A program made the translations under genes and the position numbers. Below, piece after piece: positions 5,059 to 29,097 of a stretch of 34,590 nt of DNA. The number at the start of each line of letters is the position of its first letter. Within the stretch, counting starts at the first letter, position 1. The notes below the pieces were generated by a model. The model searched no databases. It was not told the origin of the DNA and saw nothing but the letters and a program-made list of their open reading frames with translations. The stretch comes from a virus: positions 1 through 34,590 of IMG/VR virus record IMGVR_UViG_3300049222_000458. The stretch is one strand, 5' to 3'.

Positions 5059-6278
5059 AAAAAACCTTAAAAGAAGGGCTTGAATCGGTAAAAGGACACA
5101 TGGATGTTCTTAAAGGCGATTTAGAATCCCGTTATGACAAACTTCAAGAGCAAGTAAAACTTGCAGGCGAAGCTGATTCTGCTACTAAAAGCGAAATCAA
5201 AAACATTGAAGAATTAATCTCTGGTCAAAAAGATCGTATTGAAAGCATCGAAAAAAGCACTAGCCGACTAGGCTCTAGTGCTCAACCTGCTTCAATGAAA
5301 TCAAAAGTACAAGAGGCTTTAGAAGCTAAAGAAGTACAAGACCAAATGGAAGCATTTAAGTCTGGTAATATCTCAGGTTTCACTATGAATACCAAAGCAG
5401 TTATCACTGAAGCAGATGCTTATACTGGTGATGTTGTTCCTGCTGATTATGTTGCTGGATTTAAATTTGACCCAGAGCGAAGAACGCACGTACGTCAGTT
5501 CTTACCTAATGGCACGACTAATAGCGACAAAATCCGTTACATCAAAGAAAGCAACTTCACTGATGGTACAGCGGTTACTGCCGAGGGCGTTGCCTCAGGT
5601 CAAAGTGATTTCGATCTAACTGCGACTGATGCTGTTGTTGAAAAAATTGCCGCGCATTTCCGAGTTTCCAAAGAAGCTCTTAATGATACCGCAGGACTAG
5701 CTAGCCATATTTCACTACGTGGAATGGAAAAATACATGGTAGAAGAAGATGCTTATTTGCTATATGATTCTACTTATGGGCTAACAATAACATCTACTGA
5801 TTACACTTTAGACCAATATACTGGTGATGCTGATGCTCAAGAGCATGACGTGTTACTAGAGGCTATCAAACAGGTAGAAAACAGAAACTTCCGACCATCT
5901 GCAATTATGATGGGTATCGGGCGATTCTACGAGATGATTCGTAGAAAAGATGCCGATGGACGTTACATTTTCCCTAATGATGTAGTATTTGGCCAAAGAG
6001 TACCAGTAGTACGTGGTGTACCTATCATAGCTACTAATGCGATCAATGCAACAGACGGGAATGCTAATGATTTCCTAGTTGCTGATTTTGCACAATTAAC
6101 TACTTTATTCGACCGTGAGTCTATGCAAGTTCGTTTCTACGAGCAAGACCAAGACAATGTTGTTAAAGATCTAGTTACTGTTCAGATTTCTGGCCGTTTA
6201 GCTCTACCGACTTACCTACCTAATGCAGGTGCTTTCGGTAACTTTACGACTGCAATTCAGAATGCAGGTAATTCTTAA
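5049..6278 (+). CDS. Major capsid protein, HK97 fold, with N-terminal coiled-coil delta region
   Basis: 409 residues, the typical length for an unprocessed HK97-family capsid protein. Residues 1-75 are a charged coiled coil (EKTLKEGLESVKGHMDVLKG and following), the delta/scaffold region expected to be cut off by the upstream protease. The core begins about residue 105-130 (AVITEADAYTGDVVPADYV), with the usual FRVSKEALNDTAGLASHI helix and GVPIIATNAI near the end of the P and A domains. Gene order protease-capsid-connector is standard. Translation is favoured by an AAGGAG site 8 bases upstream. A short tRNA-like hairpin lies 9 bp after the stop codon. Confidence 0.93.
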   Translation: MDLEKTLKEGLESVKGHMDVLKGDLESRYDKLQEQVKLAGEADSATKSEIKNIEELISGQKDRIESIEKSTSRLGSSAQPASMKSKVQEALEAKEVQDQMEAFKSGNISGFTMNTKAVITEADAYTGDVVPADYVAGFKFDPERRTHVRQFLPNGTTNSDKIRYIKESNFTDGTAVTAEGVASGQSDFDLTATDAVVEKIAAHFRVSKEALNDTAGLASHISLRGMEKYMVEEDAYLLYDSTYGLTITSTDYTLDQYTGDADAQEHDVLLEAIKQVENRNFRPSAIMMGIGRFYEMIRRKDADGRYIFPNDVVFGQRVPVVRGVPIIATNAINATDGNANDFLVADFAQLTTLFDRESMQVRFYEQDQDNVVKDLVTVQISGRLALPTYLPNAGAFGNFTTAIQNAGNS

Positions 6279-6287
6279 TATTACCAT

Positions 6288-6331
6288 AAGGATGTTTGGA
6301 ACTTGGGCAGGTTCGATTCCTGCCCATCCTT
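6288..6331 (+). other. tRNA-like mini-structure: acceptor-like stem plus a TpsiC arm
   Basis: AAGGAT (6288-6293) pairs perfectly with ATCCTT (6326-6331) and encloses a 7-bp hairpin GGGCAGG / CCTGCCC (6305-6311 and 6319-6325). The hairpin loop is the canonical T-loop sequence TTCGATT. Only 11 bases separate the outer strand from the hairpin, so D-arm, anticodon arm and variable region are absent. It lies between the capsid stop and the next ATG at 6350. It could be a deleted phage tRNA, an old tRNA-end integration site, or an RNA element that mimics the tRNA elbow or stops 3' decay of the abundant capsid mRNA. It is not a functional tRNA. Confidence 0.5.
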
Positions 6332-6349
6332 CTAACTAAACTTATTGCC

Positions 6350-6631
6350 ATGTATAGATGTAGAAGAAACTTTAGATTAGGTAAGAAACCTTATAAGATA
6401 GACCAACCATTTAAAGGGCCTAAGGATTTGGTCAATGACATGTTTAATCGTGGTCTTCTTTACGAAACTAAAGAAAACAAAATGGCCTATAGTTTAGACA
6501 ATAAAGTGTATATTGAAAAAGATGAAAATACTAAGACAATGTACTACGTTAAAAAAGGCAACCAAATAATAGATAGACTGCCAGAAAGCAAGGCGGAACA
6601 ATTAAAAGAAGAATTAAATGCTAAGAAGTAG
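6350..6631 (+). CDS. Small conserved-looking head-region protein of unknown function
   Basis: 93 residues from ATG 6350. Upstream in-frame codons run through the tRNA-like hairpin, so longer versions are rejected. The protein is basic at the start (MYRCRRNFRLGKKPYKI), then mixed, with a charged helical end (ESKAEQLKEELNAKK). Its place between the major capsid and head-tail connector genes matches small proteins in related phages, where head decoration or head-completion roles are found. No domain is recognised. Its last 14 bases overlap the connector gene. Confidence 0.6.
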   Translation: MYRCRRNFRLGKKPYKIDQPFKGPKDLVNDMFNRGLLYETKENKMAYSLDNKVYIEKDENTKTMYYVKKGNQIIDRLPESKAEQLKEELNAKK

Positions 6632-7217
6632 TTTAAAAACACCAGATTATGGCCGTAATGGCGTCGTGACGGTCTCAAGTACCGCTACTGGTACTAATAC
6701 ACCATCAGATGTACTTAGCGCGTCAGATGCAAAATCTTGGATGAAGGTAGAAACCTCTGCAGATGACTCTTTGATAACGGATTTAATTGCTAGTACTATA
6801 GACGCGGTAGAGCAAGCTTATTCTTTTCAGTTGGTAGAAAAAACAGTAACGGCTGAATGGGAGATGTACGCTAAAAGAGTTGATTTGCCTTTATTCCCTG
6901 CTCAGTCGGTGAGTTCTGTCAAAACCATTAATAACGAAGGCACTGAAACTACATTGACGGCAGGGAGTGATTATTACTTACAAGGTGATGCAATAATATT
7001 AAATACCTTGTATGACTATAAAGAGCCTTTTACTAGGCTACGCCTTAAAGTGATTTATGTAGCTGGCTATACCTCTATTCCTTCAGGGATAAAGCTAGGC
7101 CTTAAAAAAGCAGTTTTATCAAGCTACGAAGATAGACAAGATCTAGTAGAGGGTGGTATTAGTGAATTACCTAATGGTTCTAAATCATATTTTAAAAAGT
7201 ACGCTAAACTAATCTGA
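6618..7217 (+). CDS. Head-tail connector protein (HK97 gp6-like / phage connector family)
   Basis: 199 residues. The central and C-terminal part has the features of gp6-like connectors: an SASDAKSWMKVETSADDSLI start of the domain, the ATIDAVEQAYSF-type helix, a W-containing strand, the YVAGYTSIPSGIKLGLKKAV helix and a short basic end. These proteins form a ring below portal and give a docking surface for the head-tail stopper. The gene position, two genes after the capsid and before the adaptor, supports the call. The first 30 residues, rich in Ser and Thr, are outside the family core. Confidence 0.82.
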   Translation: MLRSSLKTPDYGRNGVVTVSSTATGTNTPSDVLSASDAKSWMKVETSADDSLITDLIASTIDAVEQAYSFQLVEKTVTAEWEMYAKRVDLPLFPAQSVSSVKTINNEGTETTLTAGSDYYLQGDAIILNTLYDYKEPFTRLRLKVIYVAGYTSIPSGIKLGLKKAVLSSYEDRQDLVEGGISELPNGSKSYFKKYAKLI

Positions 7218-20781: not shown

Positions 20782-20800
20782 TTATTTTTAAAAAAAGTTT

Positions 20801-20839
20801 AAAAAAAGTTTTTTATTAATAAAAATACGTGTATATTGC
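20801..20839 (+). promoter_or_regulatory. Early-type promoter, copy 1
   Basis: A block of seven A, G, then TTTTTTATTA (20801-20818) is followed 13 bases later by TATATTGC (20832-20839). The same arrangement occurs at 24212 and 31772 with the same spacing within one base. Each is followed by a similar leader (GAACAA, AATAACAAA, TACAGA) ending in the ATG. TATATTGC resembles the Bacteroidota -7 element TAnnTTTG, with a T-run 19 bases upstream in the -33 position. Start codon 20873. Confidence 0.68.
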
Positions 20840-20872
20840 TTCTGAACAAACAATAACAAAACATACAGAGCA

Positions 20873-21217
20873 ATGAAAATAAAAGTAATACAGAACAAAA
20901 GATTAGCAAGAAACGTAATGCACATGTCAGGTTTTAGAGCCTATCTAGGTGGTTGCATTAGTTATAAAGATCTAATAGACACATTTGGCGAGCCTACTTT
21001 TACTCCAGAAGATAGCGGAGACGGAAAAGTAAATTACGAATGGGTATTTCGATTTGACGACTCATACTTCAGCGTATACGATTGGAAAACTTATGACGAA
21101 GAATATACTCGTAATGAATATACTAATTGGCATATTGGTAGTCACGCCGGCGCTATAGATACTAATAATTTTATTAACGCCGTATTAGATCAAATGCGCG
21201 AATCACTTTTTGCTTAA
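20873..21217 (+). CDS. Conserved phage protein of unknown function
   Basis: 114 residues. The core has ISYKDLIDTFGEPTFTPED, YEWVFRFDDSYFSVYDWKTY and NWHIGSHAGAIDTNNF, a pattern (DLI-FGEP, then FSVYDWK, then WHIG) recurring in small proteins of many phages. No enzymatic residues stand out; a binding or regulatory role is possible. It is the first gene behind early promoter copy 1 and joins the next gene by TAATG overlap, so it is co-expressed with the modification-like cassette. Confidence 0.6.
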   Translation: MKIKVIQNKRLARNVMHMSGFRAYLGGCISYKDLIDTFGEPTFTPEDSGDGKVNYEWVFRFDDSYFSVYDWKTYDEEYTRNEYTNWHIGSHAGAIDTNNFINAVLDQMRESLFA

Positions 21218-22119
21218 TGAAGACGGCAATAGTAGGAATCCTAAATAACCCGGCCAAGTCGTTAAACTCACACTCGGCTGGCTGGGTTCATATTGTAAAA
21301 GAATTATTAGACAATAATGCTGTAATAGAAACCGAAAATGGTAATTGGGATCAGTATGACAGGTTAATAATCTGCCATGGTACTAATTATAAAGCCGGAT
21401 CTTTTAACGTTATAGGTGGCATACAGCAATCTCATATAAATAGATTACAAAAGCTTAATAATTTTAATGGCATTATAGATAGTTTAGATGATTTCGATGT
21501 ATTAGAATATATAGAAAAGCGTAAAATAGATTTTAAATGGACTAAGCCTAAAGAATTTTATAATAAAATATCTTTGCATAATTACGAAAAAGAAGTAATC
21601 GGAGATAGTCACTCCTTATCAGTATGGAGGCCTGGCTATAGTATTAATAGAAACGATGGTAAAACATTATTTGGTTTTTTAAAAAATCCTAGTGCTAAAA
21701 AAGGATCGATAATATACTTTGGAAATATAGATATAAGGTTCCATTTACCTAGACAAGACTCTGCTTTATTTGCTACGCTGCAATTAGCTAATAGGTATGT
21801 GGATTACTGTAAAGAAAATGATCTAACTCCAGTTTGTTTATTGCCTATAGAAAGTGAATCAAGGAAAATACCTAAAAGCGGCATGTACAAGGGTCAGCCA
21901 TTTTATGGCGATCAAAAGTTAAGATCTAAATTAGTAGAAATATTTAACGCAGTATTACTAGATAATTTAACTAACGTTATTACATGGCCAGAAAAATGGT
22001 ACAAAGATCTTTTGTTTTACGAGAATGAAGTAATGGAATCTAAGCAATCTGTGCACGTAAGGCCTAAGCATTATAAGCATAATTTCAATAAAAAGACTGA
22101 TGAGCCATTACTCTTTTGA
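21217..22119 (+). CDS. SGNH-hydrolase-like protein, candidate DNA modification accessory
   Basis: 300 residues in two parts. The first ~115 form a Rossmann-like region starting MKTAIVGILNNPAKS. The rest carries SGNH-type blocks: IGDSHSLSVW (Ser131 as possible nucleophile), YFGNIDIRFHLPR (Asn170, Asp172, Arg174, His176) and, near the end, KQSVHVRPKHY (His280). SGNH proteins are esterases, acyltransferases or, in degenerate form, binding proteins. It overlaps the aGPT-PPlase-like gene by 20 bp and the three genes are tightly coupled, so it probably acts on the same substrate, for instance attaching or removing an acyl group on a modified base. The fold call is moderate; the role is inference. 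Confidence 0.55.
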   Translation: MKTAIVGILNNPAKSLNSHSAGWVHIVKELLDNNAVIETENGNWDQYDRLIICHGTNYKAGSFNVIGGIQQSHINRLQKLNNFNGIIDSLDDFDVLEYIEKRKIDFKWTKPKEFYNKISLHNYEKEVIGDSHSLSVWRPGYSINRNDGKTLFGFLKNPSAKKGSIIYFGNIDIRFHLPRQDSALFATLQLANRYVDYCKENDLTPVCLLPIESESRKIPKSGMYKGQPFYGDQKLRSKLVEIFNAVLLDNLTNVITWPEKWYKDLLFYENEVMESKQSVHVRPKHYKHNFNKKTDEPLLF

Positions 22120-23140
22120 TATAAAGCCAGAGCTTCTTGAAATGCTAGATGATTACCATGATAAGTCTATGCTTATGGAGCGTCACGTAATAGAGAAAAA
22201 ACCTTTTGAAGGTGATCTAGAAAAAAAAGTAAATGACGATTTAATCTATAATGTTCCTATATATGATATGGGATCAAGGAAATATGCTGCTTTTTGTAAC
22301 TTTACTCAAGCAGTTGTTCACAAGGAAAAGGACGTAAAAGGAAATGGCAAATGGTTTAAAAATGCTGAGATAGCTGAGTTTGATTTGATATACATGATGT
22401 ATTTATTTAGACTATGCGGCAGCGGTATAAATTATAAGCCCATGCCTAGTGGTAATAATTTATTTGAAGACATACCTTTTTTAGGTAAACATGGATTCGG
22501 TAATTTTTGGATTGTAAACTCATTATTGCAAGGTAAGTACACGAAAGAAGAATGGATAAAAGATTTAACACATCATGACGGGCCTTTTAGCAATAACAAG
22601 GGTTACATAATACCTCAGTTTAGTATTGGCTTAAAACGATACATAGTAGATTACTCGGAAGATTTTTTACGCGCGTTATATAGCGAATTCACAAAGAGTA
22701 AAATGCAGATCTATCAATTGACCGACCTTGGTAATAAGATACTAAAAGAAAAATATGGATTTAAACGGCAAAACTTTGTTTTAACAGCGCTAGCTGCTGA
22801 CGTGGCAGAATATTTCCCTGAATATATAGACGCTAAAGGAATGGTTTACGCAGGTACTAATGCTCAATTATGTATTAAGACTTTGTTTAAAAAAACAAAA
22901 AGAATAAAAGACTTTGATTTCTTTAATGAAGTCTTGCGCTTTCAATCAGAAAGGTATAATTTAAATCCAATAGATTGCGAAGATAGTCGTAATTGTGACG
23001 TTATAAGATACTTAAGAGAATACCAGTCTAAGTGGCATATACAAAAAAACAATGGAAAAATAATGAAAAATAATTCTAGTTTAAAAAAGGAACTAGGTAA
23101 CAAAGGATATTATGAATATACAAGCGAAATTCAAAAATAA
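22100..23140 (+). CDS. HhH/DNA-glycosylase-fold protein of the aGPT-PPlase type, candidate thymine hypermodification enzyme
   Basis: 346 residues, mostly helical. Visible features match the alpha-glutamyl/putrescinyl-thymine pyrophosphorylase group (now split into amino acid:DNA transferases and the helical domain of 5-hmdU DNA kinases). These are a YAAFCNFTQAVVHKEKDV start of the core, FDLIYMMYLFRLCGSG, PFLGKHGFGNFWIVNSLLQ, VYAGTNAQLC near residue 254, and a C-terminal element NPIDCEDSRNCDVIRYLREY. The last resembles the family's ending 'D-E-LCE-KY-R'. Members act on 5-hydroxymethyluracil in DNA, replacing an activated hydroxymethyl with an amine. Sequence identity is too low to choose the exact activity by eye. 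It overlaps both neighbours. Confidence 0.55.
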   Translation: MSHYSFDIKPELLEMLDDYHDKSMLMERHVIEKKPFEGDLEKKVNDDLIYNVPIYDMGSRKYAAFCNFTQAVVHKEKDVKGNGKWFKNAEIAEFDLIYMMYLFRLCGSGINYKPMPSGNNLFEDIPFLGKHGFGNFWIVNSLLQGKYTKEEWIKDLTHHDGPFSNNKGYIIPQFSIGLKRYIVDYSEDFLRALYSEFTKSKMQIYQLTDLGNKILKEKYGFKRQNFVLTALAADVAEYFPEYIDAKGMVYAGTNAQLCIKTLFKKTKRIKDFDFFNEVLRFQSERYNLNPIDCEDSRNCDVIRYLREYQSKWHIQKNNGKIMKNNSSLKKELGNKGYYEYTSEIQK

Positions 23141-24026
23141 TCAAATAGGAATAGAAAATAAAGATCTAGATACGTTTAGAGATTTAAATTATTACTTAGA
23201 TATAACAAAAGATCACAAGAGCAGCTTTGAAGATTTCTGCATAATAAATGAAAATGGTTTTAATGTAATAGATGAATCTAAGGCTTGCCCTGTTGGTTAC
23301 AAAGCTAGAGCAGGCGAGTTATTAGTGCAAACATTAAAAAAGCAGGGTATAAAAGAGATCGTCTATGTTCAACCTAGAACAGGGTTTGCTGGCATAAGTC
23401 TTTCTTATTTATGTAAAATACATAACATGGACTTAACACTAGTTATGCCATCCTCAAGACGAGTAAGTGATCACCAGGCTTTATGTATAGAATACGGTGC
23501 TAAACCTTTATTTGTTAGAATAGCTGCTATGCCAGTGGCTAATTCTTATGCAAAAAAATATGCACAACAAAGTTCTAGTAGAAAATATATAAAGTTAGGC
23601 TTGTATCACGATCTTGTAATTGCCTGCGGGGTAAGATGCATATATGATTATTTTGTAAATAAAGAAAAACCGCGCGTAATGTGGTCAGCAATATCAACAG
23701 GTGTACTAACTAGGACATTGCAAATAGCGTTACCAGATACCGAGTTTAGAGCCGTAGCGGTCGCTAGGAATATACAACAAGGAGAATTAGGTAAGGCTAA
23801 GTTTTATGGTTACCATAAGAATTTCACATCAATTAGTGATTACGTACCGCTTGGATTTGAAACAGAGCCGACTTATGATGCTAAAGCTTTTGACTACATG
23901 AATAGATATGGAGACAAAGGTGATTGGTTTTTTAATGTTGCTGGTATTGCTCCAGAGCCTACCATAAATAGAAAAGATATACATTCTTATAGGGAATGGA
24001 GGGATTTAAGCGATCTAAACTTGTAG
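23112..24026 (+). CDS. PLP-dependent enzyme, tryptophan synthase beta / cysteine synthase superfamily
   Basis: 304 residues. CPVGYKARAGELLVQTL places a Lys (Lys64) and an Arg where the fold-II PLP Schiff-base lysine is expected. YVQPRTGFAGISLSYLCK corresponds to the substrate/PLP phosphate loop, LTLVMPSSRRVSDHQALCIE to the next strand-helix, and WSAISTGVLTRTLQIALPD to the Gly-rich cofactor loop. The order and spacing fit the superfamily (threonine dehydratase, cysteine synthase, ACC deaminase). It is diverged enough that host-type amino acid metabolism is unlikely. PLP enzymes occur in known thymidine-hypermodifying phages, acting on the amino acid attached to the base; this is the natural reading here. 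The stop codon abuts the 10-bp repeat array. Confidence 0.65.
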   Translation: MNIQAKFKNNQIGIENKDLDTFRDLNYYLDITKDHKSSFEDFCIINENGFNVIDESKACPVGYKARAGELLVQTLKKQGIKEIVYVQPRTGFAGISLSYLCKIHNMDLTLVMPSSRRVSDHQALCIEYGAKPLFVRIAAMPVANSYAKKYAQQSSSRKYIKLGLYHDLVIACGVRCIYDYFVNKEKPRVMWSAISTGVLTRTLQIALPDTEFRAVAVARNIQQGELGKAKFYGYHKNFTSISDYVPLGFETEPTYDAKAFDYMNRYGDKGDWFFNVAGIAPEPTINRKDIHSYREWRDLSDLNL

Positions 24027-24175
24027 TCAGATCTTAACAGATATTGTTAGTAGCCGTTAGTTATTGACAGATATTAAGACTCCATGTTAGTTATTGTTAG
24101 CAGTTGTTAGTTATTGTCAGTTATTGTAACAACATGTCAGTTATTGTTAGTTATTGTTAGCAGTTGCTAGCCATA
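24026..24175 (+). repeat. Fifteen-unit array of 10-bp repeats (consensus GTTAGTTATT)
   Basis: Starting at the last base of the PLP gene stop codon, the DNA can be cut into 15 consecutive decamers. Exact GTTAGTTATT lies at 24056, 24086, 24106 and 24146; GTCAGTTATT at 24116 and 24136; GTTAGCAGTT at 24096 and 24156. Related units are GTCAGATCTT (24026), AACAGATATT (24036), GTTAGTAGCC (24046), GACAGATATT (24066), AAGACTCCAT (24076), GTAACAACAT (24126) and GCTAGCCATA (24166). Units are helically phased (about one turn) with no spacers. It fills most of the 255-bp gap (24027-24281), the longest gene-free stretch in the window. Likely a binding array: operator, origin or packaging site. Confidence 0.85.
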
Positions 24176-24211
24176 ATAGCCATATTTTTACCATGTTTTA
24201 AAAAAAATTTT

Positions 24212-24251
24212 AAAAAAAGTTTTTTATTAATCTGGATTGTGTGTATATTCC
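24212..24251 (+). promoter_or_regulatory. Early-type promoter, copy 2
   Basis: Seven A, G, TTTTTTATTAA (24212-24230), then TGTATATTCC with the -7-like box at 24244-24251. It matches copies at 20801 and 31772; its spacing is one base longer. The leader that follows (AACAACAATAACAAAACTAC, then AGAATC) leads to ATG 24282. It drives the small-gene and recombination cluster, and the decamer array ends 36 bp upstream, so a protein bound there could control it. Confidence 0.68.
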
Positions 24252-24281
24252 TTATAACAACAATAACAAAACTACAGAATC

Positions 24282-24503
24282 ATGACAACAAATAAACACC
24301 ATAACGTAACACTATTAGAACTAATTGAAAAGAACCAAGACCAATTAGATTCATTACGTTCAAGAAAACACTCTGAAAATGCAACACAAGAATGGATAGA
24401 TGTAATGGATAGCCATTGGGATGTTGAGCATTGGTTGATTACAGAAGTAATAAAGCCTGCACTAAAAGAGGCTTTAGTAAATCAAGAGTTGAAAAACTGG
24501 TAA
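24282..24503 (+). CDS. Small early protein of unknown function
   Basis: 73 residues, acidic and helical (VTLLELIEKNQDQLDSLRSR, then WDVEHWLITEVIKPALKEAL). It is the first gene after early promoter copy 2, a place where phages often put host-takeover or anti-defence genes. No motif links it to a family. A leader with the shared AATAACAAAAC element precedes the ATG. Confidence 0.6.
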   Translation: MTTNKHHNVTLLELIEKNQDQLDSLRSRKHSENATQEWIDVMDSHWDVEHWLITEVIKPALKEALVNQELKNW

Positions 24504-27266: not shown

Positions 27267-27515
27267 ATGGAAACAGAATACAAAGTACTACAAAAAATAG
27301 GGCCTTATGATGGTCCTTATCAAAAAAATCTAGTAACTTATATACTACTTTCTAAAAGCAAAAGAGTAGCATGGCATGAAAAGCCTGGTAGAAAGTTTCC
27401 TTATAACAAAGGAGACGTTGTTACAGGCATAGCGCTAAAAGGCGACAATATAGATTACAAAAAATCAAATCCTAAACTAATATTAAAACAACTTAATTTT
27501 TATGGAAATATTTAA
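27267..27515 (+). CDS. Small beta-rich protein of unknown function
   Basis: 82 residues from ATG 27267; upstream in-frame codons lie inside the SSB gene and are rejected. Strand-rich with many aromatic and lysine residues (TEYKVLQKIGPYDGPYQKNL, RVAWHEKPGRKFPYNKGDVV). The size and pattern suggest a small barrel. Two bases separate it from the SSB gene and it overlaps the MazG-like gene by 14. No family recognised. Confidence 0.55.
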   Translation: METEYKVLQKIGPYDGPYQKNLVTYILLSKSKRVAWHEKPGRKFPYNKGDVVTGIALKGDNIDYKKSNPKLILKQLNFYGNI

Positions 27516-27816
27516 TAACATAAGATCATGGGCTAACGAAAGAGGCCTTTATGACAAAGGAGATACTAAAACTCAATTTATTAAACTAAACGAAGAGGTA
27601 GGAGAATTAGCAGAAGCTATACTAAAAAAAGATGAAAAAGAAGTCATCGATGCTATAGGTGATATAGTAGTTGTCCTTACAAATTTAACATACTTAGCAA
27701 ATGTTGATATAATTAGATCAGATTATATTAGGATAGAGGACTGCGTGCAATCGGCATATAATGAAATAAAAGATAGAAAAGGTAAGATGGATAATGGAAC
27801 CTTCAAAAAAGCATGA
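27502..27816 (+). CDS. MazG-like nucleotide pyrophosphohydrolase
   Basis: 104 residues. The metal-binding ExxE...ExxD motif is visible: KLNEEVGELAEAIL (EEVGE) and KEVIDAIGDIVVVL (ExxD-like, with IDAIGD). Helical all-alpha NTP pyrophosphohydrolases of this type cleave dNTPs or NTPs to monophosphates. In a nucleotide operon with dCMP deaminase it may remove dUTP or a canonical dNTP that competes with a modified one, or lower ppGpp. Overlaps its neighbours at both ends. Confidence 0.82.
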   Translation: MEIFNNIRSWANERGLYDKGDTKTQFIKLNEEVGELAEAILKKDEKEVIDAIGDIVVVLTNLTYLANVDIIRSDYIRIEDCVQSAYNEIKDRKGKMDNGTFKKA

Positions 27817-28201
27817 TCTATACATGCGTATAGCCGAAGCAGTCGCATTAAGTAGTCACTGCAAAAGAAGCAAAGTTGGTTGTATTATTGTAAAAAATGA
27901 TAATATTATAGGTATTGGCTACAATGGTACGCCTTCTGGCTTTGAAAATAACTGCGAATGTAATAACGTTACAAAAGACGAGGTTTTACACGCGGAGTCA
28001 AATGCAATAACAAAATGTGCTAAAAGCACTATAAGTTCAGACGGTTCTGTAATGTACTGTACATTAATGCCTTGTTTTAATTGCGCTAAATTAATAATTC
28101 AAAGCGGTATTAAGCAAGTTGTTTACAAAGACGATTATAGAAATAGATCAGGAATAAAACTATTAACAAAAGCAAATATAGAGGTTTTAAAATATGAATA
28201 A
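27794..28201 (+). CDS. Deoxycytidylate (dCMP) deaminase
   Basis: 135 residues. Zinc-dependent deaminase with HAESNAI (His66, Glu68) and TLMPCFNCAKLI (Cys94, Cys97), an N-terminal VALSSHCKRSKVGCIIVKND and GIGYNGTPSGFENNCE, all typical of dCMP deaminases. It makes dUMP from dCMP and so feeds the TS-family enzyme two genes downstream. Phages with modified thymidine or cytidine often carry it to redirect pyrimidine pools. Usually regulated by dCTP/dTTP; the sequence does not tell whether that applies here. Confidence 0.9.
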   Translation: MEPSKKHDLYMRIAEAVALSSHCKRSKVGCIIVKNDNIIGIGYNGTPSGFENNCECNNVTKDEVLHAESNAITKCAKSTISSDGSVMYCTLMPCFNCAKLIIQSGIKQVVYKDDYRNRSGIKLLTKANIEVLKYE

Positions 28202-28466
28202 ATCATTATGCGAAATAGCACATGAAATAGTAAACGAAAGAAGCGAAGAAAAAGAAAGAGAATACGGGCCCTTCTCTGAAGGGATGGAAAGAGCCGCACA
28301 TATATTATCAGGATTAATTGGATACGAAGTATACGCTGAGCACATGTATTTAGCGATGATAGCTTTAAAATTAAGTAGAGAATCATACAACCATAAAAAG
28401 GATAATTTATTAGACGCGATAGCATATTTACAAGGATTAGAAAATTATTATAATGAAAACAAATAA
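28194..28466 (+). CDS. Small MazG-like/DUF6378-like helical protein
   Basis: 90 residues. The pattern REYGPFSEGMERAAHILSGL, then EHMYLAMIALKLSRESYNH and DNLLDAIAYLQGLENYY corresponds to a small all-alpha family found next to phage nucleotide genes (R-YG, ALKL-R and D-DAI-Y). The invariant acidic residues resemble those of MazG-type pyrophosphohydrolases. The activity is unproven. It sits between dCMP deaminase and the TS-family gene with overlaps on both sides. Confidence 0.65.
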   Translation: MNKSLCEIAHEIVNERSEEKEREYGPFSEGMERAAHILSGLIGYEVYAEHMYLAMIALKLSRESYNHKKDNLLDAIAYLQGLENYYNENK

Positions 28467-29097
28467 CGCAACAACAGCCTTTGAGTATTATTACGATTTA
28501 ATTATAAATATCGGCAAATCAAAAAAAGGCACAAAATATTTAAGAAATATTTCATTTACGATGCTAAACCCATTGGATAATGTTATAAGTACAAAGTGGA
28601 GAAATTTTAACGTAGACTACGCTGAAAGAGAATGGCAATGGTATTTATCAGCTGATAGGAACATAAGCGCCATGGAGCCACCTGTGCCTAAGATATGGCA
28701 AGATATTAGCGATGATAATGGTGATACATTCTCTAACTATGGGTGGCAATGGCAAAGATCTAACCAGATTGATTATGTAATAAATGAATTGAGATCTAAT
28801 CCTACAAGTAGAAGGGCTTGTATTTCGATATATGATGCAAAAGAAAACCAAGATTGGATAAGAGACGTTCCATGTACTCTAGCCATCTGTTTCTATATAG
28901 AAGATGATTCTTTATGCATGAGCGTATACATGCGATCTAATGATCTAGTCTTTGGATTTTGTAATGATCAATACTGCTTTAGTAAGCTACAAGAGTATAT
29001 AGCCAAAGAAATTAATATAAAAATTGGTTATTATCATCACTCTGCTACAGATTTACATATATACAAAAGACACTTTGATCTGAAGAAAAATGGATAA
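28453..29097 (+). CDS. Thymidylate-synthase-family pyrimidine 5-hydroxymethylase-like enzyme
   Basis: 214 residues, shorter than ThyA (264) and T4 dCMP hydroxymethylase (246). Family features: YGWQWQRSNQIDYVINELRS, TSRRACISIYD, the catalytic cysteine in DVPCTLAICFYI (Cys141), YMRSNDLVFGFCNDQY (Arg161, Asp164) and DLHIYKRHF (His202, Tyr204). Counting from Asp164, the residue equivalent to ThyA Asn177 is Asp172. The same ND arrangement occurs in T4 gp42 (MRSNDVVFGFRND), where Asp gives dCMP preference. So a hydroxymethylase rather than a thymidylate synthase is suggested, acting on dCMP or dUMP. The nearby dCMP deaminase and the 21-24 kb cassette favour a role in base modification. Confidence 0.75.
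   Translation: MKTNNATTAFEYYYDLIINIGKSKKGTKYLRNISFTMLNPLDNVISTKWRNFNVDYAEREWQWYLSADRNISAMEPPVPKIWQDISDDNGDTFSNYGWQWQRSNQIDYVINELRSNPTSRRACISIYDAKENQDWIRDVPCTLAICFYIEDDSLCMSVYMRSNDLVFGFCNDQYCFSKLQEYIAKEINIKIGYYHHSATDLHIYKRHFDLKKNG

Follow-up and report, generated by a model that had tools for sequence, protein, structure and literature searches.

A candidate phage cytosine-hypermodification cassette in which an SGNH-fold protein may stand in for a DNA kinase

Which DNA base might a phage elaborate, and by what chemistry, when its candidate modification genes come without a recognisable DNA kinase? This question is raised by three overlapping genes in the IMG/VR virus record IMGVR_UViG_3300049222_000458, the entire 34,590 bases of which form the window analysed here; the virus is probably a phage of Bacteroidota, since its terminase has its best named relatives in Phocaeicola phages. 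The three open reading frames (ORFs) lie on one strand at positions 21217-24026, overlap by 20 and 29 bp, and are predicted to encode an SGNH-fold protein (ORF1), a helical protein (ORF2) and a pyridoxal phosphate (PLP)-dependent enzyme (ORF3). An initial annotation had proposed that they modify a DNA base, taking 5-hydroxymethyluracil as the starting point. We estimate a probability of roughly 0.72 that this trio, together with a hydroxymethylase of the thymidylate synthase (TS) family, constitutes a phage DNA cytosine-hypermodification cassette, with the SGNH enzyme in the DNA kinase's place.

To establish how far the arrangement is conserved, we used 80 IMG/VR loci retrieved with ORF2 alone (213 relatives of which were found in IMG/VR), counting only loci with enough flanking DNA in each denominator. 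Of the 69 loci extending far enough upstream, 68 carried ORF1, which lay within 1 kb in 66; all 73 loci extending far enough downstream carried ORF3, in every case within 1 kb. Both genes always shared the strand of ORF2. Where at least 5 kb of downstream DNA was available (45 loci), a TS-family gene was found in 44, and searches of 26 whole contigs recovered one in 25. Because this synteny is kept across dozens of diverged loci, a chance arrangement is excluded, and the trio is a genuine unit. Purifying selection acts on each of its genes (dN/dS, the ratio of non-synonymous to synonymous substitution rates, 0.04-0.09 against the close relative L001). The cassette is nevertheless larger than the three genes first described, as relatives usually add genes for a DUF6378 protein, the hydroxymethylase, a MazG-like protein and/or a dCMP deaminase; near the trio, DUF6378 recurs in 77 of 91 loci, the deaminase in 45 and the MazG-like gene in 43, several of these loci being truncated. 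In many relatives these genes are contiguous with the trio, while those of the window are grouped separately at 27502-29097. The resulting distance of about 4 kb between trio and hydroxymethylase, and the lack of a known activity for ORF1 and ORF2, would suit a trio with no role in DNA modification, one whose target is RNA or protein or that works in a small-molecule or nucleotide-pool pathway, its place near the hydroxymethylase reflecting only a shared early-gene location. We regard this as highly improbable in view of the contiguity seen in many relatives, the co-occurrence with a dCMP-hydroxymethylase-type gene (44/45), and the fact that the folds and homologues of the trio are otherwise known from DNA hypermodification.

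The TS-family enzyme points to the identity of the base. Base specificity in the E. coli thymidylate synthase is set by residue 177 (Asn for uracil, Asp for cytosine), and Asp177 has been associated with phage contigs of modified cytosine (PMC8670742). Numbered along an E. coli sequence whose landmark residues agree with PMC8670742, the TS-family proteins from loci with the trio, that of the window among them, carried Asp177 and Cys146 in 73 of 73 cases, with Thr or Asn at position 147; the Asn177 signature of the dUMP hydroxymethylases of the 5-hydroxymethyldeoxyuridine (5-hmdU) pathway appeared in none of the 73. That signature was seen in the control dUMP hydroxymethylases (M6, CampHawk, P26218 and ctpVu19), and Asp177 in the control dCMP hydroxymethylases of Shigella phage Sf23 and Aeromonas phage 44RR2.8t. 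A cytosine derivative is therefore to be expected: judged by sequence, the window protein, with its TS fold, catalytic Cys and Asp177, is a probable dCMP hydroxymethylase, and the base handle is most likely 5-hydroxymethylcytosine (5hmC) and not 5-hydroxymethyluracil. Synteny with a pyrimidine hydroxymethylase supports the proposed link to DNA-base modification; its 5-hydroxymethyluracil premise is not supported. As a side observation, Bacteroides phage BF486P2 encodes two paralogous dCMP hydroxymethylase-type proteins (L141:3153-3914 and 5986-6666), both with Asp177, one of which ranks first among the annotated relatives of the window enzyme (46%).

A pathway of thymidine hypermodification through 5-hydroxymethyluracil, relying on an unrecognised or host kinase, would accommodate the membership of ORF3 in the family of the phage M6 PLP enzyme and the ADDT-type fold of ORF2, both otherwise known from thymidine systems. 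The residue at position 177, which differs between all 73 associated enzymes and the control dUMP hydroxymethylases, makes it improbable in our judgement; so do the failure to find a 5-hmdU kinase and the occurrence of SGNH homologues in T4-type phages of Aeromonas, among them 44RR2.8t with its annotated dCMP hydroxymethylase. The missing kinase had already been remarked upon in the initial annotation, and profile searches bore this out: no match to the 5-hmdU DNA kinase (PF18748) was obtained in the window or in 25 related contigs, some of them fragments (M6 positive control, 1.1e-19), and a P-loop motif in the window's forward frames was found only in the terminase.

Gene fusions suggest what replaces the kinase. 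In one related locus (L086), ORF1 and ORF2 form a single 713-residue protein. ORF233c of 44RR2.8t (795 amino acids; phrog_17781, function unknown; L137:6001-8388) consists of an ORF1 homologue (hhalign 100%) followed by an HMUDK_hel-like domain that weakly matches PF18723 (E-value 0.0036), and phage AS4, T4-type like 44RR2.8t, likewise joins an ORF1 homologue to a weak HMUDK_hel-like domain in one protein (L147:2965-5382). In single-genome searches the HMUDK_hel matches reached 4.1e-4 for 44RR2.8t and 3.0e-4 for AS4, both below the curated cut-off. 44RR2.8t also encodes gp42, the annotated dCMP hydroxymethylase, and gp56, consistent with action on 5hmC. Both fusion proteins are candidate DNA-modification enzymes in cultured phages.

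The assignment of ORF1 to the SGNH type, made initially from sequence blocks, was supported by structure prediction. An AlphaFold2 model built from a 44-sequence alignment (predicted local distance difference test score, pLDDT, 92.5) retrieved SGNH/GDSL hydrolases as leading matches in a PDB fold search (probability mostly 0.94-1.00, E-values 1e-3 to 2e-2), while Pfam returned no match and a PDB sequence search with the ORF1 profile gave nothing usable. None of the PDB fold matches was better than an E-value of 0.001, and their template modelling (TM) scores of 0.2-0.5 imply that the core alone is common. The GDS131H block, N170 and H280 are invariant across the 44 homologues, which include proteins of Aeromonas, Stenotrophomonas and Tenacibaculum phages. 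The fold and the catalytic Ser, Asn and His of the superfamily therefore all appear to be present, with Ser131 as candidate nucleophile and Asn170 and His280 as candidate catalytic residues; these roles were assigned from motifs, without structure superposition.

For ORF2, the main evidence is a fold match. Its AlphaFold2 model matched viral proteins annotated as 'amino acid:DNA transferase domain-containing' (E-values 7.6e-9 and 3.5e-3, probability 1.00, TM scores 0.65 and 0.49), with evidently unrelated matches starting only at an E-value of 1.7. The model thus supports the fold shared by ADDT (PF18724) and HMUDK_hel (PF18723), the aGPT-PPlase type originally suggested for this protein, even though profile searches placed it neither inside nor outside that group: no significant match was obtained in Pfam, PHROG or PDB-sequence searches, tblastn against annotated phages gave no match even at an E-value of 10, a scan of genome contigs with the first ORF2 alignment recovered no relative, and a PDB fold search with the model returned nothing. 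Direct profile comparison of ORF2 with HMUDK_hel proteins gave P = 0.016, against P = 0.011 for the known relatives ADDT and HMUDK_hel, and ranked among the top three of 28 pairwise comparisons, with HMUDK_hel/44RR C-terminus and ADDT/HMUDK_hel. In hhalign, neither ADDT (P = 0.16) nor the C-terminus of 44RR (P about 0.4) aligned significantly with ORF2, and the profile evidence relating ORF2 to HMUDK_hel is suggestive only.

ORF3 fits the fold type II PLP enzyme with Lys64 that had been recognised in it from the outset. It matches PALP with an E-value of 2.3e-7, at 30.9 bits slightly below the curated cut-off of 35, and the Schiff-base Lys64 is invariant in 32 homologues. It also falls into phrog_7093 (E-value 1.8e-17), the PHROG of phage M6 gp52, and its homology to gp52 is strengthened by an hhalign probability of 99.5 against a gp52 profile that also includes an Erythrobacter sequence, despite the absence of a BLASTP match between ORF3 and gp52. 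A PDB sequence search with the ORF3 profile gave nothing usable. In Erythrobacter phage vB_EliS_R6L, an ORF3-like PLP region was seen inside gp1 (L139), a protein annotated as a DNA modification methylase.

Several observations weigh against the cytosine cassette as we reconstruct it. The Asp that usually lies three residues before the catalytic His of SGNH enzymes is replaced in ORF1 by Gln277, invariant in the 44 homologues (as is the nearby Glu274); because Gln stands in for this Asp, any ordinary hydrolase activity of ORF1 may be changed or lost. ORF2 scores below the Pfam cut-off for both PF18723 and PF18724, only one of its 33 homologues matches HMUDK_hel (E-value 0.031), and its model reaches only a middling pLDDT of 74.7. 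A host or unrecognised kinase could also still be at work. Finally, the SGNH protein of Aeromonas phage 25 (L146:1276-4547) and IME13 (L138:2270-6047) has no PF18723 match and adjoins a glycosyltransferase-like gene, near which IME13 also carries an annotated UDP-galactopyranose mutase; here the SGNH protein may act on a sugar, and a galactofuranosyl base modification is possible. The 358-amino-acid neighbour of the SGNH gene in these two phages was considered as the missing helical domain and rejected, as by eye it reads like a GT-B glycosyltransferase.

These two phages lend some substance to a different use of 5hmC, in which ORF1 would be an esterase or acyltransferase acting on an already decorated base, carrying for example a sugar, with no amino-acid part involved and ORF3 making a small-molecule donor. 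Removal or transfer of acyl groups on sugars is common among SGNH proteins. We consider this unlikely for the window, as we saw no glycosyltransferase among the genes that recur around the trio, and the relatives of ORF2 and ORF3 belong to amino-acid-type pathways. SGNH proteins of the ORF1 family may, however, act on more than one decorated form.

Under the cytosine-cassette reading, the Asp177 enzyme would produce 5-hydroxymethyl-dCMP, as its residue signature and the T4 precedent suggest, while the MazG-like protein and dCMP deaminase would draw down the dCTP/dCMP pool, so that hydroxymethyl-dCTP could enter phage DNA. ORF2, whose pairing with ORF1 is well supported by synteny and fusion, may then recognise 5hmC in DNA, and ORF1, with Ser131 as nucleophile, might replace the P-loop kinase by acyl or aminoacyl transfer to the 5-hydroxymethyl oxygen, or by activating it in another way. 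From its homology, ORF3 could either supply the amino-acid part by beta-replacement or tailor it, decarboxylation being one example. The modified cytosines would presumably shield the phage genome from host nucleases. Any particular product is put forward with much less confidence than the cassette itself.

To our knowledge, the amino-acid-type hypermodifications made by ADDT and PLP enzymes all concern thymidine and proceed from 5-hydroxymethyluracil with a DNA kinase. A broader and more tentative proposal, to which we give somewhat less than even odds, is that the fold of ADDT and HMUDK_hel serves phages as a module for recognising DNA bases, combined with interchangeable catalytic partners (a P-loop kinase where the base is 5-hydroxymethyluracil, an SGNH enzyme where it is 5hmC), and that the trio installs an amino-acid-derived or acyl group on DNA cytosine without phosphoryl activation. 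If true, such a cytosine modification would, as far as the accessible literature shows, not yet have been described; a search combining SGNH, hydroxymethylcytosine and bacteriophage returned no paper, and an earlier mention of the trio in Iyer 2013 or Lee 2021 is possible. A widespread kinase-free 5hmC counterpart would extend hypermodification chemistry, add a new branch of phage DNA-disguise systems, and possibly provide new enzymes for tagging 5hmC. For 44RR2.8t and other cultured Aeromonas phages, it also yields a specific and directly testable hypothesis about their base modification.

The surroundings of the trio in the window are listed in Table 1. The overlaps and coordinates of the trio agree with the initial annotation, which had also placed an early-type promoter before it; the promoter-like block precedes a 114-amino-acid ORF at 20873, and this ORF, not ORF1, is therefore probably the first gene of the transcription unit. 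Two near-identical blocks of this kind, at 20803 and 24214, each precede an operon, the first of which begins at 20873 and the second at 24282. The stretch separating the trio from the latter operon holds TGTTAGTTAT-type units repeated imperfectly in tandem (24038-24170), which could be an origin or regulatory region. The MazG-like protein has a possible dCTPase-type role. Elsewhere, a lipoprotein-like ORF of about 227 amino acids is inserted between ORF2 and ORF3 (L048:11046-11729 and 15 similar loci), and in one phage group the cassette is preceded at a short distance by GroEL-like genes (L068:7415-9037 and about 30 loci), accompanied in about 25 of the GroEL-bearing loci by GroES-like genes, both identified by eye.

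Table 1. Features of the trio and its surroundings in the window
Feature	Position	Strand	Basis
Promoter-like block	20793..20860	+	AAAAAGTTTTTTATTAAT block and downstream TGTATATT, both common to a near copy at about 24204-24270
114-amino-acid ORF, function unknown, outside the conserved cassette	20873..21217	+	Among loci, only the close relative L001 has a copy
ORF1, SGNH-fold protein, 300 amino acids	21217..22119	+	AlphaFold2 model and PDB fold search; invariant residues
ORF2, helical protein of ADDT/HMUDK_hel-type fold, 346 amino acids	22100..23140	+	Fold search; weak HMUDK_hel profile similarity
ORF3, predicted fold type II PLP enzyme, 304 amino acids, Lys64	23112..24026	+	PALP; phrog_7093; profile comparison
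MazG-like nucleotide pyrophosphohydrolase	27502..27816	+	PF03819, E-value 1.2e-7; recurs with trio
dCMP deaminase	27794..28201	+	PF00383, E-value 2.9e-26; phrog_174
DUF6378 protein, recurrent cassette member	28194..28466	+	PF19905, E-value 4.1e-10; 77/91 loci
TS-family protein with Asp177, probable dCMP hydroxymethylase	28453..29097	+	PF00303, E-value 7.9e-29; residue signature and controls

Among known systems, the thymidine-hypermodification cassette of Pseudomonas phage M6 (ADDT gp51, PLP enzyme gp52, radical S-adenosylmethionine (SAM) protein gp53, 5-hmdU kinase gp54, HMUDK_hel gp55 and TS-family gp58) shares with the window a TS-family hydroxymethylase, a helical protein of ADDT/HMUDK_hel type and a homologous fold-II PLP enzyme. 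It differs in its Asn177 hydroxymethylase, which belongs to a uracil pathway, and in having a P-loop kinase and a radical SAM protein where we find an SGNH protein and no PF18748 kinase; the corresponding genes of its relative SN1 are listed as a thymidine-modification cassette (PMC9476957). Synechococcus phage S-B43, with its CmoX/CmoY carboxymethylcytosine system, places an amino acid on a modified cytosine of phage DNA, as the trio may do, but by means of carboxy-SAM and an ATP-dependent amide ligase, and a TS-family hydroxymethylase, SGNH protein or ADDT-type protein is not described there (PMC12783734). The T4-type 5hmC pathway (gp42, gp56 dCTPase and glucosyltransferases) has the Asp177 signature and nucleotide-pool genes in common with our loci, whereas the SGNH, ADDT-type and PLP proteins set the latter apart, as does the absence of a glucosyltransferase among the recurrent trio neighbours. 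The 5hmC carbamoyltransferase contigs detected by MetaGPA likewise combine Asp177 TS-family, PRA-PH/MazG-like and dCMP-deaminase genes with a modifying enzyme, which there is a TobZ-type carbamoyltransferase and here the SGNH/ADDT-type/PLP trio (PMC8670742). ORF233c of 44RR2.8t, unlike the window's separate genes, joins its domains in a single protein, its listed neighbours do not include a PLP gene, and its C-terminus is not profile-alignable to ORF2; it resembles them in its ORF1-homologous N-terminal half, its weakly HMUDK_hel-like C-terminal domain and the dCMP hydroxymethylase encoded by the same phage.

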